DNA of 64,000 bases from Roseburia sp. 499 (GTDB lineage: Bacteria > Bacillota > Clostridia > Lachnospirales > Lachnospiraceae), in NCBI RefSeq assembly GCF_001940225.2, contig NZ_CP135164.1, positions 3,038,001 through 3,102,000 of the forward strand, read 5' to 3'. A program made the translations under genes and the position numbers. The notes below the pieces were generated by a model. It made no database searches. It had not been told where the DNA came from and saw only the letters and a program-made list of their open reading frames with translations. Shown here piece after piece: positions 18,117 to 27,877 of the stretch; positions within the stretch are counted from its first letter, which is position 1, and each line of letters begins with the position of its first letter.

Positions 18117-18395
18117 CTAAAAAACCCGTCCTCTATGATAAACAATCATAGAAGACGGGCTATTATTGTCCGTGATACCACTTCTCTTTATCTGTATCTC
18201 ACGACACAGACCTCTACAAGTACCTTCATACTCTTCGCTATAACAGGCGATCCCGTCATTATCTAGCCTTCCGGTTCGACAATGCCACTCCAAAGCCATC
18301 TTCCACATGCTCTCCTGTATCCCTTTTCAGCTACCGGAACTCTCTTTGCCATTCCTTCATGTGTACTCTCTTCTTCTCAGTGTTTACTTCATTTC
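18117..18395 (-). promoter_or_regulatory. T-box riboswitch (Met) leader of metG
   Basis: Read on the minus strand: a stem I region with AGAGAG and GTAGCTGAAAAGG-type elements, an ATG in AAGATGG (18297-18299) as likely Met specifier, the conserved T-box TGGTATCACG (18171-18180), and a terminator formed by 18125-18138 and 18146-18159 with TTTTTT (18119-18124). Uncharged tRNA-Met would favour the antiterminator. The specifier is inferred from position; the T-box and terminator are clear. Confidence 0.85.
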
Positions 18396-18846: not shown

Positions 18847-19773
18847 TTAACGCATGCATATATATACTACATATGCCGCATATATCAAAATCATTATAAT
18901 ACCGTGTATCCGATTTAGCTTTTTCTTACTCCATGCAAAAATCCATACCAGAATACTTACTACTATTAGAATTATAGCATCTATCAAATTTTCATTCAAG
19001 AATACCATCGGACTAACTGCTCCTGCAATTCCAAGTACCAACAAAATATTGAAAATATTAGAACCTATTACATTTCCAAGCGCCATATCCGTCTCACCCT
19101 TTTTGGCAGCCACAAGAGAAGTTACCAATTCCGGCAGAGAGGTTCCGAATGCTACAACGGTAAGACCAATTAATGTCTGACTCAATCCAAATGCTTTTGC
19201 AATGTTAGAAGCAGAATCTACAACTAAATCACCACCAATTACGATGGCAATAATTCCTCCAATGATATAAATCAAGCACTTCCATCCCGGAAGGGTTTCA
19301 ATCTCTTCTACTTCTGTATTGTTTCTTGCCTTCATTGCAGCAAGCACCATCCATAACAGAAACGCTGCAAAAACAACCAGTAAGATGACACCTTCTACCC
19401 GATTCAGACTCATTCCCAAATATCCCATACCAACCAAAAGAATTGCTGCTAAAATAGATAGTGGAAATTCCTGTTTCAACGTAGACACTTTTACTGCCAA
19501 AGGAGCAAATAATGCACATGCTCCACATACAATCATCAAATTAAAAATATTAGAACCTATTACATTACTGATTGCCATGGTATTGCTTCCCTTTACAGAT
19601 GCAGCAATGCTGACGGCACATTCCGGTGCACTGGTTCCCATAGCCACGATTGTCATTCCGATAATCATCGTAGGCACACGCAATTTTTTTGCAACACTGG
19701 CACTTCCGTCTACAAAAAAATCCGCACCCTTAATCAACAATACAAATCCTACTACTAATAAAATGTAATCCAT
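18847..19773 (-). CDS. Calcium/sodium antiporter, CaCA family (YrbG-like)
   Basis: A 308-residue membrane protein with about ten helices in two inverted halves. Both alpha repeats are clear: GMTIVAMGTSAPECAVSI with GNVIGSNIFN-like SNVIGSNIFNLM in the first half, and GLTVVAFGTSLPELVTSL with LGNVIGSNIFNILL in the second. The acidic residues in those repeats bind Ca2+ and Na+. It exports Ca2+ in exchange for Na+. It lies 41 bases downstream of mntP and is likely in one transcript with it and the zinc-ribbon gene. Confidence 0.94.
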   Translation of the reverse strand: MDYILLVVGFVLLIKGADFFVDGSASVAKKLRVPTMIIGMTIVAMGTSAPECAVSIAASVKGSNTMAISNVIGSNIFNLMIVCGACALFAPLAVKVSTLKQEFPLSILAAILLVGMGYLGMSLNRVEGVILLVVFAAFLLWMVLAAMKARNNTEVEEIETLPGWKCLIYIIGGIIAIVIGGDLVVDSASNIAKAFGLSQTLIGLTVVAFGTSLPELVTSLVAAKKGETDMALGNVIGSNIFNILLVLGIAGAVSPMVFLNENLIDAIILIVVSILVWIFAWSKKKLNRIHGIIMILIYAAYVVYICMR

Positions 19774-19814: not shown

Positions 19815-20390
19815 TTAAAAGTTCAATATGCCTAAATGTTCCAGCAAAATCTTAAGCCCAATCAATATCAATATGATTCCTCCGGCAAGTTCTGCCTTAC
19901 TCTTGTACTTGCTTCCAAAAATATTTCCAACAAATACTCCAACAGCAGAAATAGCAAACGTAGTAACTCCTATTATTGCAATGGCCGGAATAATATTAAC
20001 CTTTAAAAATGCAAAGGTAATTCCCACTGCCAAAGCATCAATACTGGTTGCAATCGCAAGAAGAAAAAGTTCTTTTATGTTGAGCTTACTCTCGCATTGA
20101 CAGACCTCCTCTTCTTCTTTTTCTCTGGACTCCTTCACCATATTTCCACCAATCAGTGCCAGAAGAATAAACGCAATCCAATGGTCTACTGAGGTGATAT
20201 ACGTTTCAAACTGTTTTCCCAGTACCCATCCAATCAGAGGCATCAATGCCTGAAATCCTCCAAAAAACAGAGCAATAATAACGCAATGGAACTTATTTAC
20301 CTTTTTCATATTCAGTCCTTTACAGATAGATACCGCAAATGCATCCATGGATAAGCCAACGCCTATCAGAAGCAGTTCAACAATTCCCAT
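19815..20390 (-). CDS. mntP: Manganese efflux pump MntP
   Basis: A 191-residue membrane protein of the MntP (DUF204) family with about six helices and the paired motifs [17 protein letters not shown] near the N terminus and [17 protein letters not shown] in the second half, whose Asp residues carry Mn2+. It protects against excess manganese. AAAGGAG before 20390 decides the start; the longer frame to 20447 extends into IS DNA. An IS lies only 17 bases upstream of the ATG and separates it from the probable Mn2+ riboswitch at 22173-22310. Confidence 0.94.
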
Positions 20391-20406
20391 ATTTTTTCTC
20401 CTTTGC

Positions 20407-20420
20407 AATAAATAAATTTT
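20407..20420. repeat. Left copy of IS target-site duplication
   Basis: AATAAATAAATTTT, repeated in direct orientation at 22149-22162 on the other side of the IS. Because the last T may belong to the IS end, the duplication is 13 or 14 bp. Confidence 0.75.
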
Positions 20421-22148
20421 AGGCGTTTGATAAACGCCGTAACCCATTGATTTTACTGGGTTTTATTGCTAATTTTATATAAATTTTCTCTCCTCAAGTG
20501 ATAAAATATAAGTAACAACACAAACACTTTTTCACAAGAGAGGAGAAAATTTATGGCTATTAAGTATCATCAAATTTCTTTAAGTGAAACTTTTTCAGAC
20601 TGTCAAAACCAGTTCATGGATGACTCTCCATCATTCTTTAATATTCTCGCAGAATACTTTGATCTTGATGACTTCATCCCTCCAGAATTCACATCCGCTT
20701 TTTATCTTACCATCGGCAGGAATCGTCTTTATTCTCTTCATGGTTTTCTTACCGCCTATATCCTCCAGAAAATATTTTCTATTCCTACCGATTCCCTGCT
20801 TCTTTTATTCTTAAATCTCTGCAAGGAATTACGTGATTTCTGCGGTTTTTCTAAAGTTCCTGACGCTTCCTTAATGTCCAGGTTCAAAAACGAATTCGAG
20901 CCTTACATTGAACTCATGTTTCAACGAATGGTTGATTACACAGAGCCCATCTGCCAACTAATTGACTCATCTCTCGCACAGATGCTTACCTTTGATACCT
21001 CCGGAATTGAACTTTATGTTACTGAAAACAATCCAAAAACTTTAAATGCTTTAATCAAAAAACTCAAAGCTTTTTACAAAGATAAACCTGATGTCGACCC
21101 TTACAAGATGGCTTATGGCCTCATGCCTTCACAGGCTGTTTCCTGTCCTGACGCAAAGCATATGTACATCAATGGTCATTTTTGCTATGCAGACAAATTT
21201 GCTATTCTTACCAATGGTTTAGGTATCGTAAGACATATCGCTTTTATCAATGATGACGATTTCAAATCTGCGCATCCAGAACTTCCTGTTGAAAAGAAAA
21301 CTGCTTCTCCCGATGAAGATAAATCCTTAGGTGACGCTGCAGCACTTGTTCCAGTTCTTAGTGATTTCTTTTCCCTTCATCCAGACTTTCATCCAAATAC
21401 TTTTCTTGGAGATGCTGCTTTCGACTCTGCTGAATTGTATGGAAAGTTATTCAATGATTTCCATTTTTCCAAAGCTCTAATCCCCTATAATCCAAGAAAT
21501 GAAAGCCCTCTTAAAAAGGTTGGTTATAATGCTTATGGCTATCCTACTTGCCCTAATGACTCCTCTCTTTCCATGAAATACTGTGGAGTAACAAAGGAAA
21601 AAGGTCGTTCAAATCGTATCAAATGGATCTGCCCTAAGATGTCTTATAGCCATGGTTGGCATTGCAACTGTGAAACCCCTTGCAGCACAGCTGCTAAAGG
21701 GCGAACAACATATACTTATGAGAACATGGATTTACGTATGTTTCCTGGCATCCAACGTGATTCTGACGAGTGGAATGACACTTATAAAATAAGAGCCATT
21801 GTCGAGCGTGTAATCAATCATTTTAAAATCAACATGTGTATTGCTGGAAGGAAAACAAGAAATCACTCCACCACCAAAGCTGATGTCTTTCTTGCCGGTA
21901 TTGCAAGCCAGTTGACGGTAATCGTTGCATATGCGATGAATTGTCCACAATACATTCGAAGTCTAAAACCTTTAGTTGCCTGAAAAAATATTCAATTGTC
22001 ATAATACTTATTTGAGCTTATTAAAGTACGCCCCAAATTTGATGCTCTATGTCAATTCAGAAACAATTCTGAATACTGACCGATTTTTTCTCCTTATATA
22101 GAGGAGAGTTATCCACAAGAACTGATAAAATCATTTATCAATTACCTA
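20420..22148 (+). mobile_element. Insertion sequence, about 1.73 kb, inserted between mntP and its leader
   Basis: Ends are defined by the 13-14 bp direct repeat on both sides and by imperfect terminal inverted repeats TAGGCGTTTGATAAACG (left) and, read inward on the other strand, TAGGTAATTGATAAATG (right), 13 of 17 identical. The left tip carries a hairpin terminator-like AACCCA/TGGGTTTT (about 20441-20464), and ATTCAGAA-ACAA-TTCTGAAT follows the transposase (22055-22074) before a T-run. It holds one intact transposase gene running opposite to mntP. Confidence 0.85.
20553..21983 (+). CDS. DDE transposase of the mntP-upstream IS
   Basis: A 476-residue transposase with an N-terminal helical region and an RNase H-like core. 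Acidic triad candidates: LTFDTSGIE (about 150), TFLGDAAFDSAELY (about 285), and the C-terminal YKIRAIVERVINHFKI block. A four-Cys cluster near 370-385 (WHCNCETPC and ICPKM) may bind zinc. The style resembles IS1182/IS5-superfamily elements, but the family is not certain. GAGAGGAG precedes the ATG. The frame is intact. Confidence 0.88.
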   Translation: MAIKYHQISLSETFSDCQNQFMDDSPSFFNILAEYFDLDDFIPPEFTSAFYLTIGRNRLYSLHGFLTAYILQKIFSIPTDSLLLLFLNLCKELRDFCGFSKVPDASLMSRFKNEFEPYIELMFQRMVDYTEPICQLIDSSLAQMLTFDTSGIELYVTENNPKTLNALIKKLKAFYKDKPDVDPYKMAYGLMPSQAVSCPDAKHMYINGHFCYADKFAILTNGLGIVRHIAFINDDDFKSAHPELPVEKKTASPDEDKSLGDAAALVPVLSDFFSLHPDFHPNTFLGDAAFDSAELYGKLFNDFHFSKALIPYNPRNESPLKKVGYNAYGYPTCPNDSSLSMKYCGVTKEKGRSNRIKWICPKMSYSHGWHCNCETPCSTAAKGRTTYTYENMDLRMFPGIQRDSDEWNDTYKIRAIVERVINHFKINMCIAGRKTRNHSTTKADVFLAGIASQLTVIVAYAMNCPQYIRSLKPLVA

Positions 22149-22162
22149 AATAAATAAATTTT
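22149..22162. repeat. Right copy of IS target-site duplication
   Basis: AATAAATAAATTTT, same orientation and sequence as 20407-20420. Removing the IS and one copy joins the riboswitch terminator directly to the mntP ribosome site. Confidence 0.75.
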
Positions 22163-22172
22163 CCAGAATAAC

Positions 22173-22310
22173 AAAAAACCCATGTATGCCCCAAAAGGCA
22201 TACATGAGTCTCATTCTTTAAGATTTGCCAGGTCTTTACGGCTATCGCCTAACCAGGATGTTGACAAATCACGTATTCACGCGAATTACTCCCTCACGAA
22301 GTATGTCCAT
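22173..22310 (-). promoter_or_regulatory. Probable yybP-ykoY manganese riboswitch, separated from mntP by an IS
   Basis: On the minus strand a 5' GGACATACTTCGTGAG strand is followed by GGGAGTA, a long internal arm with TTTGTCAACATC, then TGAGAC and CTCATGTATGCC. The last strand can pair either with the 5' strand (closed aptamer) or with GGCATACATG to form a terminator (22181-22206, TTTTTT at 22174-22179). GGGAGTA and GAGAC are hallmarks of yybP-ykoY aptamers, which sense Mn2+ and commonly precede mntP. The assignment is from memory of the consensus; a covariance search was not possible. Confidence 0.7.
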
Positions 22311-22340
22311 ACTATAACAGTTTTTGATAATATTTGTCAA
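22311..22340 (-). promoter_or_regulatory. Promoter of the riboswitch transcript
   Basis: On the minus strand TTGACA (22335-22340), 18 bp, TATAGT (22311-22316); transcription would begin right at the aptamer. It is 4 bases beyond the phoR stop. Confidence 0.7.
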
Positions 22341-22343
22341 CTA

Positions 22344-23660
22344 CTAAAATAAAATTTTTATTTCAGTTCCTTTTCCCTGCTCACTTTCCAATGTAATCTC
22401 TGCATTATGCTGAGCTACAATATGCTTTACTATCGCAAGTCCTAGTCCGGTTCCACCACTCTGCTTCGACCGACTCTTATCCACCCGGTAAAATCGTTCA
22501 AAAACTCTCTCCTGATGCTCTTTGGGAATCCCGATTCCGGTATCTTTTACAGATAACATAACTTTTCCATTTATCGGCTTCACCGTAACCGTCACACTCC
22601 CGCCACGATTATTATAGCGCACTGCATTACTACACAAATTGTATAACAATTCGTCCATTAGATTGCGGTTTGCTACCACAGTACAATGTTCTCCCTTCAG
22701 GCTCAGAGTAACGTCCTGCTTACTTGCCTGTACATCCATCATATCCAAACAACTTTGGGCTGCTACATAAAGATCTACCTGTTCAAAATCAAACTCCAAA
22801 TCCTCGCAATCCAGCTCTGATAGTTTTATAATATCGTTAATAAGAGTCAGCAAGCGGTCTGAACCATGATGTATCTCTTCCGCAAAGCGCTTGGTATCTT
22901 TTTCATCTGCCATTCCGCTTCCAATTAGCTCTGCATAGCCGGAAATGGCTGTTAACGGTGTTTTCAATTCATGGGAAACATTAGCAGTAAATTCCTGACG
23001 CATTTTTGCACTATTTAAGATATTAATATGCTGCTCCTTAATCGTCTGAATAAAAGGTTTTATTTCATCATAAATGTTATCCTGGTTTACTCCATCCAAA
23101 TTAGACGCCAGTTTTTCAATGGGCAGCAGTAACCGTTTCGTTAAAACATGCGACAGTAATACACACAGCACCACAATTAACACAGAGAGCACTAATGCGA
23201 TGGACACTGTATTTATCATAATCCGAAAGATGTTTTCTGAATCCTTTCCCACTCGCAGTATCTGTCCATTTTCTAGTTTTTCTGCATAATATAGCGTATG
23301 TAAAGAACTGGTGGAAGACCAACGTACTGAAGTCCCCTCTCCTTCCTCCATTGCCTCTTGAATCTCAGGACGGTTTTTATGATTCTCCATCGTCTCCACA
23401 TCAACCGCCGTATCATAGACAACTTTTCCATTTTCCGCTATCAACGTAATACGCAGCCCATCCTCTTCCAATCGCTCCCGATTCTCCGGCAAATCCCAGA
23501 AACTCTGTTTTAACGGCTGAATTACATGGTCATAGGCCCTAATATCATCAAACACCTGATTTTGAAATATATTATAAAACAATATCATAGAAGTAATGGC
23601 GGTGATAATCACCGCCAGTGCTGATACTGCCATAAACTGGATGTTTATTTTCTTCTTCAT
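22344..23660 (-). CDS. phoR: PhoR-like sensor histidine kinase
   Basis: A 438-residue kinase: TM1 (about 8-30), an extracytoplasmic region (about 31-150), TM2 (about 151-174), HAMP, dimerisation box NVSHELKTPLTAISGYAEL with the phosphorylated His, N box LLYNLCSNAVRYN, and ATP-lid motifs DTGIGIPKEHQERVFERFYR and SGGTGLGLAIVKH. Paired 13 bases downstream of phoB and following a Na+/Pi cotransporter gene, it is inferred to report phosphate shortage. The gene symbol rests on this context. Confidence 0.88.
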   Translation of the reverse strand: MKKKINIQFMAVSALAVIITAITSMILFYNIFQNQVFDDIRAYDHVIQPLKQSFWDLPENRERLEEDGLRITLIAENGKVVYDTAVDVETMENHKNRPEIQEAMEEGEGTSVRWSSTSSLHTLYYAEKLENGQILRVGKDSENIFRIMINTVSIALVLSVLIVVLCVLLSHVLTKRLLLPIEKLASNLDGVNQDNIYDEIKPFIQTIKEQHINILNSAKMRQEFTANVSHELKTPLTAISGYAELIGSGMADEKDTKRFAEEIHHGSDRLLTLINDIIKLSELDCEDLEFDFEQVDLYVAAQSCLDMMDVQASKQDVTLSLKGEHCTVVANRNLMDELLYNLCSNAVRYNNRGGSVTVTVKPINGKVMLSVKDTGIGIPKEHQERVFERFYRVDKSRSKQSGGTGLGLAIVKHIVAQHNAEITLESEQGKGTEIKILF

Positions 23661-27599: not shown

Positions 27600-27877
27600 A
27601 TAGTTTCAATAAGCAAAAGCATTGATTGGAAGAAGTAACAATTGGGAAATCCAACAGAAAGCAGCCGGCAGATGAGAGGCGCAGGAAGAACTTTTTGTGA
27701 ATACATCCAGGAGCTTCACACCGAACAGAATCTAAGTAGGCTGTGACGGAATTGCAACCGTTAATATGCAGGAGTGCTGACAGGCACTTACCAAGACAGG
27801 CAATGTGAGTTGTCTGTGAATAAAGGTGGTAACACGTAAGTTTTGGCTTTCGTCCTTTAATAGGACGGGAGCCTTTT
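27600..27877 (+). promoter_or_regulatory. T-box riboswitch (Tyr) leader of tyrS
   Basis: Stem I carries TAC in GAATACATCC (27702-27704), the classic GAA-UAC specifier for tyrosine. The T-box GGTGGTAACACG (27825-27836) is exact, followed by a terminator GGCTTTCGTCC / GGACGGGAGCC (about 27845-27873) and TTTT. Uncharged tRNA-Tyr should switch on tyrS. Confidence 0.93.

Follow-up and report, generated by a model that had tools for sequence, protein, structure and literature searches.

The insertion sequence (IS) that divides the leader of mntP, in the 64,000-nucleotide stretch of DNA analysed here (the window), belongs to a clade of ISs that mostly lie beside Shine-Dalgarno (SD) motifs. At mntP the IS is flanked by a target duplication and stands between a manganese riboswitch-type aptamer and the SD, and same-genus relatives carry the site empty. 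In most of the relatives examined, an SD-like motif lies beyond the transposase-start end, in one fixed polarity and within a narrow range of distances, and by this trait we define a proposed SD-targeted class. The pattern of surviving insertions strongly supports a clade addressed to SD motifs, and we put the probability that its transposition machinery uses the SD motif as a DNA address at about 85%. The initial annotation of this DNA, which had described the IS at mntP, overlooked this non-random position.

Along the minus strand come, in turn, promoter, aptamer, terminator, duplication, 1729-bp IS, duplication, SD, mntP and exchanger-type gene. The features are as follows:

22311..22340, minus strand: promoter of the mntP leader, TTGACA-18-TATAGT, 11/12, with TG before the -10; found by scan, with the same elements seen by eye in the relatives L012 and L013
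22196..22305, minus strand: yybP-ykoY-type (manganese riboswitch-type) aptamer, from model R1
22175..22212, minus strand: intrinsic terminator, whose 5' arm includes the 3' strand of aptamer helix P1
22149..22161: target duplication, right copy, AATAAATAAATTT
20420..22148, plus strand: insertion sequence IS-A, 1729 bp, TAGG...CCTA, imperfect terminal repeats
20553..21983, plus strand: transposase, 476 aa, DUF772 and RNase-H-like DDE fold, with motif CPK..C.C..PC..GR
20479..20554, plus strand: inverted repeat by which the SD and start of the transposase gene would be masked in transcripts entering from outside
20407..20419: target duplication, left copy, AATAAATAAATTT
20398..20404, minus strand: SD AAAGGAG of mntP, the putative insertion address, from statistics over relatives
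19815..20390, minus strand: mntP, putative manganese efflux pump (Pfam Mntp, 4.8e-56)
18847..19773, minus strand: sodium/calcium exchanger-type gene, 41 bp 3' of mntP

The initial annotation had proposed that an IS with a 13-14 bp target duplication separates a riboswitch-type leader from the mntP SD and that its transposase runs the other way, all of which is borne out. Specifically, AATAAATAAATTT is present on both sides of the 1729-bp element, as a 13-bp duplication if the ends are TAGG/CCTA and a 14-bp one if the boundary is shifted by one base, and the transposase gene points away from mntP. The genome holds three IS-A copies without a single base difference, with duplications of 13, 10 and 11 bp. 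The exchanger-type gene probably shares the mntP transcript; by eye, L013 has the same neighbour.

The proposal that removing the IS would restore a normal leader agrees with an empty-site comparison across genomes at one per species. Two same-genus genomes have the uninterrupted arrangement, G006 (L012, mntP 90% identical) and G007 (L013, 85% identical), with promoter, aptamer, terminator, AAAGGAG SD and mntP present and no IS. The site of a related element, IS-B, is also empty in G006 with CTCC, the SD complement, retained (L278), giving three same-genus empty sites that keep the SD motif without the IS. The site corresponding to L002 in G006 likewise lacks the IS, though without a clear CTCC.

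Several other observations concern the window and its genome. The right end of IS-A at 22083-22095 reads ATTTTTTCTCCTT, and the identical 13 bases span the mntP SD at 20391-20403. Two T-box leaders lie in the window, at 18148-18387 (minus strand) and 27613-27860 (plus strand); the minus-strand gene directly 3' of the former is, judging from its sequence, presumably methionyl-tRNA synthetase-like. Another DDE transposase (PF01609) occupies approximately 206-1030 of the window (plus strand) and has two equal-scoring counterparts in the genome (the three being L218-L220). Elsewhere in the genome, G000:C1:2893845-2894411 (minus strand) encodes a distant paralogue of mntP, with 29% identity.

All three IS-A copies adjoin an SD-like AAGGAG. 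Outside them the common sequence is TTTTTCTCCTT, an SD on the opposite strand, located 13-16 bp from the left end (the transposase-start end), and copies of IS-B (66% over matched DNA) show the same SD placement. The relatives then analysed were 80 of the 142 that come from named genomes, together with 6 from viral contigs. A transposase match was obtained at 121 loci, of which 20 lacked a recognisable left end and one had too short a flank; the 100 usable loci provided 88 distinct flanks. Same-genus loci L054/L059 and L066 have flanks in common with L085 from Petralouisia muris and L115 from a Lachnospiraceae isolate, which makes a Lachnospiraceae host probable for the window. CTCC occurs in the window 7-26 bp outside the left end at 77/88 of these sites and on the opposite strand at 1/88, with the proviso that sites sharing an element or a genome are not fully independent. 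Outside the right end it occurs at 3/56 sites on the same strand and 1/56 on the opposite strand (left versus right, Fisher p = 1.5e-24), and 5.8% of random 20-nt windows contain it (514/8800). When only duplication-bounded sites are counted, CTCC is found in 50/56.

The motif extends beyond this tetranucleotide. The best match to GAAAGGAG is 8/8 at 38 and 7/8 at 28 of the 88 sites, while random positions scored in the same way (n = 4400) reach 8/8 in 0.2% and 7/8 in 1.7% of cases; thus 66/88 sites have at least 7/8, compared with about 1.9% of random positions. The match begins 13-17 bp from the junction at 68/88 sites. Agreement within the aligned motif is 86-97% at seven of eight positions, with 64% G at the first, values that are inflated by best-match alignment. 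Consensus sequences of the subgroups are AAGGAGAaaAA in subgroup A (15 sites), gAAAGGAGa in subgroup B (63 sites) and aAGGAGgt in subgroup C (seven sites), three sites being unplaced; these differences may stem from the transposases or from host SD habits. AAGGAG is present at 63/88 sites (28-nt window) versus 10.6% of 245 flank ORF starts (24-nt window), a background that is possibly too low since starts were called mechanically.

CTCC is missing from the window at 11 of the 88 discovery sites. By eye, seven of these have weaker GAAAGG- or GAGGT-like sequences, two lie beside another copy (L067, L068), one has its SD at the other end (L109) and one has a misassigned end (L142). New copies also land beside older ones, as in the tandem pair L067/L069. 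In that pair, from G028, two IS-B copies share a single SD, and the L069 copy sits between the SD and the L067 copy. The left flank of L179 reads, in our interpretation, as the leader of a related IS, entered at its CTCCTC. Leaders of related ISs also show CTCC facing their own SD, as in the inverted repeat at 20479-20554.

The pattern was reproduced in a replication set for which the rule was fixed beforehand. A total of 397 genomes of the family gave 30 loci, to which two plasmid loci were added; 11 of the 32 had no recognisable left end and four repeated earlier sites, leaving 17 new distinct sites. CTCC is present at 16/17, GAAAGGAG matches at 7/8 or better at 12/17, and the single miss carries AAAAAGGTGGG. 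Loci with variant ends, including those of transposases with 44-46% identity, have the motif at 7/8 distinct sites, counted by eye (19 loci, of which 8 gave no ends and the other 11 represent the 8 sites). As a control, we analysed nine other IS groups of the genome, whose ends were set by common identity and are hence approximate. Eight of them (31 copies, 62 ends) show no consistent SD, with the motif outward at 3/62 and inward at 4/62 ends. These eight include IS-D, a DUF772 element in three copies, closer to curated IS1182 (126 bits), whose duplications read as 7 bp.

The ninth control group, IS-E, was unexpectedly positive. The four copies compared, none of them in the window, have GGAGG at a distance of exactly 11 bp beyond their transposase-start end:

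G000:C1:788056, 1121075, 2235530 and 2334815: IS-E copies (L236-L239)

At 23 distinct sites of IS-E and its relatives, six of them from the window's genome, CTCC is nearby in 19 and CCTCC lies at exactly -16..-12 in 15. The four sites without CTCC are L234 (nested beside another copy), L242, L258 and L265; placing the end of L258 like those of the other IS-E sites gives CCTCC at 11 bp there too. The IS-E duplication appears to be 4-5 bp, and DUF772 was not found in IS-E. The transposases of IS-E and IS-A/B are distantly related, with homology across the DDE region (163 columns; hhalign probability 98.5, E = 2.9e-15), and the cysteine motif CPK..C.C..PC..GR is found in 19/22 IS-A/B/C sequences, in 1/1 IS-E sequence tested and in 0/1 IS-D sequence tested. 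Speculatively, the shared DDE region and cysteine motif could form a dedicated SD reader passed between otherwise different transposases, which would define a class addressing the 5' side of genes across Clostridia; we hold this extension to be doubtful.

We infer recognition of DNA sequence to be the cause of the pattern. The element would dock on a GAAAGGAG- or AAGGAG-like sequence with fixed polarity, and its transposase-start end would be joined approximately 13-17 bp upstream of the motif, with a duplication of about 11 bp (range 7-15). By this docking rule the element would often land in the 5' leader between promoter and SD; the coding region would stay intact and the transposase gene would be divergent from the host gene. 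At mntP, such an insertion would have moved the manganese switch 1.73 kb away from the SD. Riboswitches or terminators were also considered as the IS target and dropped, the SD motif being the feature common across sites.

What lies behind the motif bears on whether a gene is needed. At the 88 sites, 50 motifs are followed by a start and an ORF of at least 60 codons (or open to the locus end), 10 by a long frame without a start and 19 by neither, and at nine the motif is too weak to place. Hence, of the 79 sites scoring at least 6, 29 lack a start followed by an ORF of at least 60 codons, short genes being counted as no start, which weakens the idea that a real gene start is needed; a gene start seems not to be required. 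Full GAAAGGAG octamers are at gene starts in 25/38 insertion sites and in 16/26 background cases (flanks and window), with no excess, whereas AAGGAG is at gene starts in 41/63 insertion sites and 91/266 background cases, an excess. This difference suggests that sequence recognition suffices at strong sites and that selection or context may add to it at weaker ones.

The excess of AAGGAG at gene starts, together with the start codon and ORF behind the SD at 50/88 sites, is what would be expected if the ISs inserted broadly in AT-rich DNA and persisted only just 5' of SDs, where they are harmless to coding or useful. Selection of this kind could sharpen the pattern, but selection alone does not readily explain the fixed polarity and the 13-17 bp spacing, or the spacing of exactly 11 bp at 15/23 sites of the IS-E group; moreover, strong motifs exist without an ORF start, and the pattern is absent from the eight other IS groups of the same genome. 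We therefore regard survivorship as an unlikely account of the whole. Even less probable is targeting coupled to translation, in which the 16S rRNA 3' tail (anti-SD) or an initiating ribosome would guide the transposase. The 16S rRNA 3' tail includes CUCCUUUC, to which GAAAGGAG is complementary; but full-octamer sites are at gene starts about as often as background octamers, some sites have no ORF start, and the predicted model of the transposase (a sequence search of solved structures with it gave no match) resembles an ordinary DDE transposase. Chance, or a generic preference for AT-rich intergenic DNA, could draw on the fact that many target duplications are AT-rich, but it is contradicted by the right-end, random-position and other-IS controls and by the replication set, and its probability is negligible. 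Direct reading of the SD motif in DNA is thus the reading we prefer.

The leader separated from mntP was also analysed. The initial annotation had called its aptamer yybP-ykoY-like, a name that stands by a model built here, although not by the Rfam search. Specifically, Rfam did not list RF00080 for 22100-22400 at E<=1, nor at gathering across the whole window, and the mntP aptamer falls short of the RF00080 gathering score of 45 bits. Over 61 relatives, RF00080 gave three weak matches (30.3-35.7 bits), all in order-level kin and all below the 45-bit cut-off. Because the matches in relatives are also below cut-off, the RF00080 model looks insensitive for this group, and we use the name yybP-ykoY-type. 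Model R1 was built from five mntP leaders and three loci weakly matching RF00080, with the window and its two nearest kin left out. R1 matches the window leader at 22196-22305 (minus strand) with 53.5 bits and E = 4.9e-11 (1.6e-9 for the whole genome), E-values that are rough owing to short calibration, and scores 52.1 and 52.4 bits on the two nearest kin.

Through R1, which bridges to the RF00080 matches, the mntP aptamer has the conserved core and a covarying P1. When 11 sequences are aligned to the structure, pairing holds in 97% of cells and 6/9 pairs changed on both sides, and slides of 1-3 columns reduce pairing to 28-53%. The covariation score is above all 500 shuffles and two of five measures are unremarkable; shuffles reached the both-side pair number in 153/500 and the pair-type number in 478/500, and the alignment was fitted to the same structure. 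GGGAGTA is found no more than 420 bp upstream of the gene in 9/30 mntP-homologue loci. Seven of the nine (L012, L013, L015, L018, L027, L030, L031) go on, by eye, to elements resembling CAACAU and GAGAC and to a hairpin followed by a T run; in L014 the series is partial, and the match in L038 adjoins the start codon. The window locus (L011) is absent from the nine because the IS pushes its aptamer out of range. A genome scan, in which 150 of 496 candidates were scored, revealed a second yybP-ykoY-type aptamer at G000:C1:1760932-1761035 (minus strand; L170, 36 bits with R1), just 5' of a gene that we take from its sequence to encode a P-type cation ATPase.

The only terminator-like site flagged within 20380-22400 is at 22212-22175 (minus strand). 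As its 5' arm includes the P1 3' strand, we infer the usual switch arrangement, in which the bound aptamer would prevent the terminator. The leader resembles RF00080 in its GGGAGUA, CAACAU and GAGAC core, its covarying P1, a terminator sharing a P1 strand and a position upstream of a manganese exporter gene; it differs in that the aptamer is compact and unlisted by the Rfam model at E<=1 and is followed by an IS before the SD.

The promoter and switch are still in series with mntP. Within the IS, the scans detected neither a terminator on the minus strand nor, at the end facing mntP, an outward promoter-like site; the only minus-strand promoter-like match in the IS is weak (21463-21434, 9/12) and lies deep in the transposase gene. 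With the leader intact and no internal terminator flagged, read-through is possible. The hairpins that the initial annotation had placed at the IS ends do occur on the minus strand. Two hairpins form in one stretch close to the right end (folding energy -18.8 kcal/mol), and 20-odd bases 5' of the mntP SD there is a hairpin of 7 bp (-8.6); a T run accepted by the scan follows neither. Such hairpins could slow or stop polymerase.

The conclusion of the initial annotation, that mntP has probably lost its manganese control or now depends on an IS promoter instead, gains no support from these scans, and the specific regulatory claim for mntP is unproven. We give roughly even odds to mntP being still transcribed, at a lower level and still gated by the switch, through read-through antisense to the transposase. 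That mntP is cut off from manganese control, its expression lost or driven from an IS promoter, seems somewhat less probable. The distance of 1.73 kb that now separates the SD from promoter and switch speaks for such a loss, as do the minus-strand hairpins, including the one close to the SD, and the fact that Rho or decay can remove long transcripts that are not translated; the intact series without a flagged internal terminator or outward promoter speaks against it. The second aptamer, preceding the presumed ATPase gene elsewhere in the genome, also counts against loss, and suggests that other manganese-responsive export may remain. A published example, in which a manganese exporter controlled by a yybP-ykoY switch was altered, is attributed to a 30-bp duplication in the gene, not to an IS (PMC8546581).

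Within a literature search of titles and abstract openings, with most subscription papers outside its coverage, we found nothing on an SD-targeted IS and nothing on an IS splitting a yybP-ykoY riboswitch from its gene. Few conserved signals in bacterial genomes are as widespread as the SD motif, and an element that reads it would be addressed to the upstream side of many genes, in many different hosts. SD-addressed insertions can split promoters or riboswitches from coding regions, which would explain the arrangement at mntP and predicts other cases. The rule is simple enough to find leader-splitting insertions in gut Clostridia, and the way in which a DDE transposase would recognise SD motifs in DNA becomes open to experiment.

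Among known families, the IS1182 family, including IS1272, is the closest. IS-A shares with it a DUF772 and DDE transposase of similar length and terminal inverted repeats: the IS-A transposase matches DUF772 (Pfam PF05598, 37.9 bits, cut-off 23.1) and has an RNase-H-fold DDE domain with the invariant acidic residues. The best NCBIfam match is the IS1182 model NF033551, at 50.5 bits for IS-A and 66.4 bits for IS-B, over the C-terminal part and below the cut-off of 270. On these scores we call IS-A IS1182-like and do not file it as an IS1182 member. According to a published account, IS1272 replaces inverted repeats without any sequence in common, and palindromes are the target of some IS1182 members (PMC5678879). 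In contrast to these elements, the clade described here lies next to an SD motif and makes a duplication of about 11 bp.

Sequence-specific mobile elements include ISs in REP palindromes, Tn7 at attTn7 and class C group II introns at terminators. Like them, the clade described here would use a conserved host feature as its address and often spare coding DNA; unlike them, it would take as that address the Shine-Dalgarno motif, on its upstream side, with fixed polarity and spacing.
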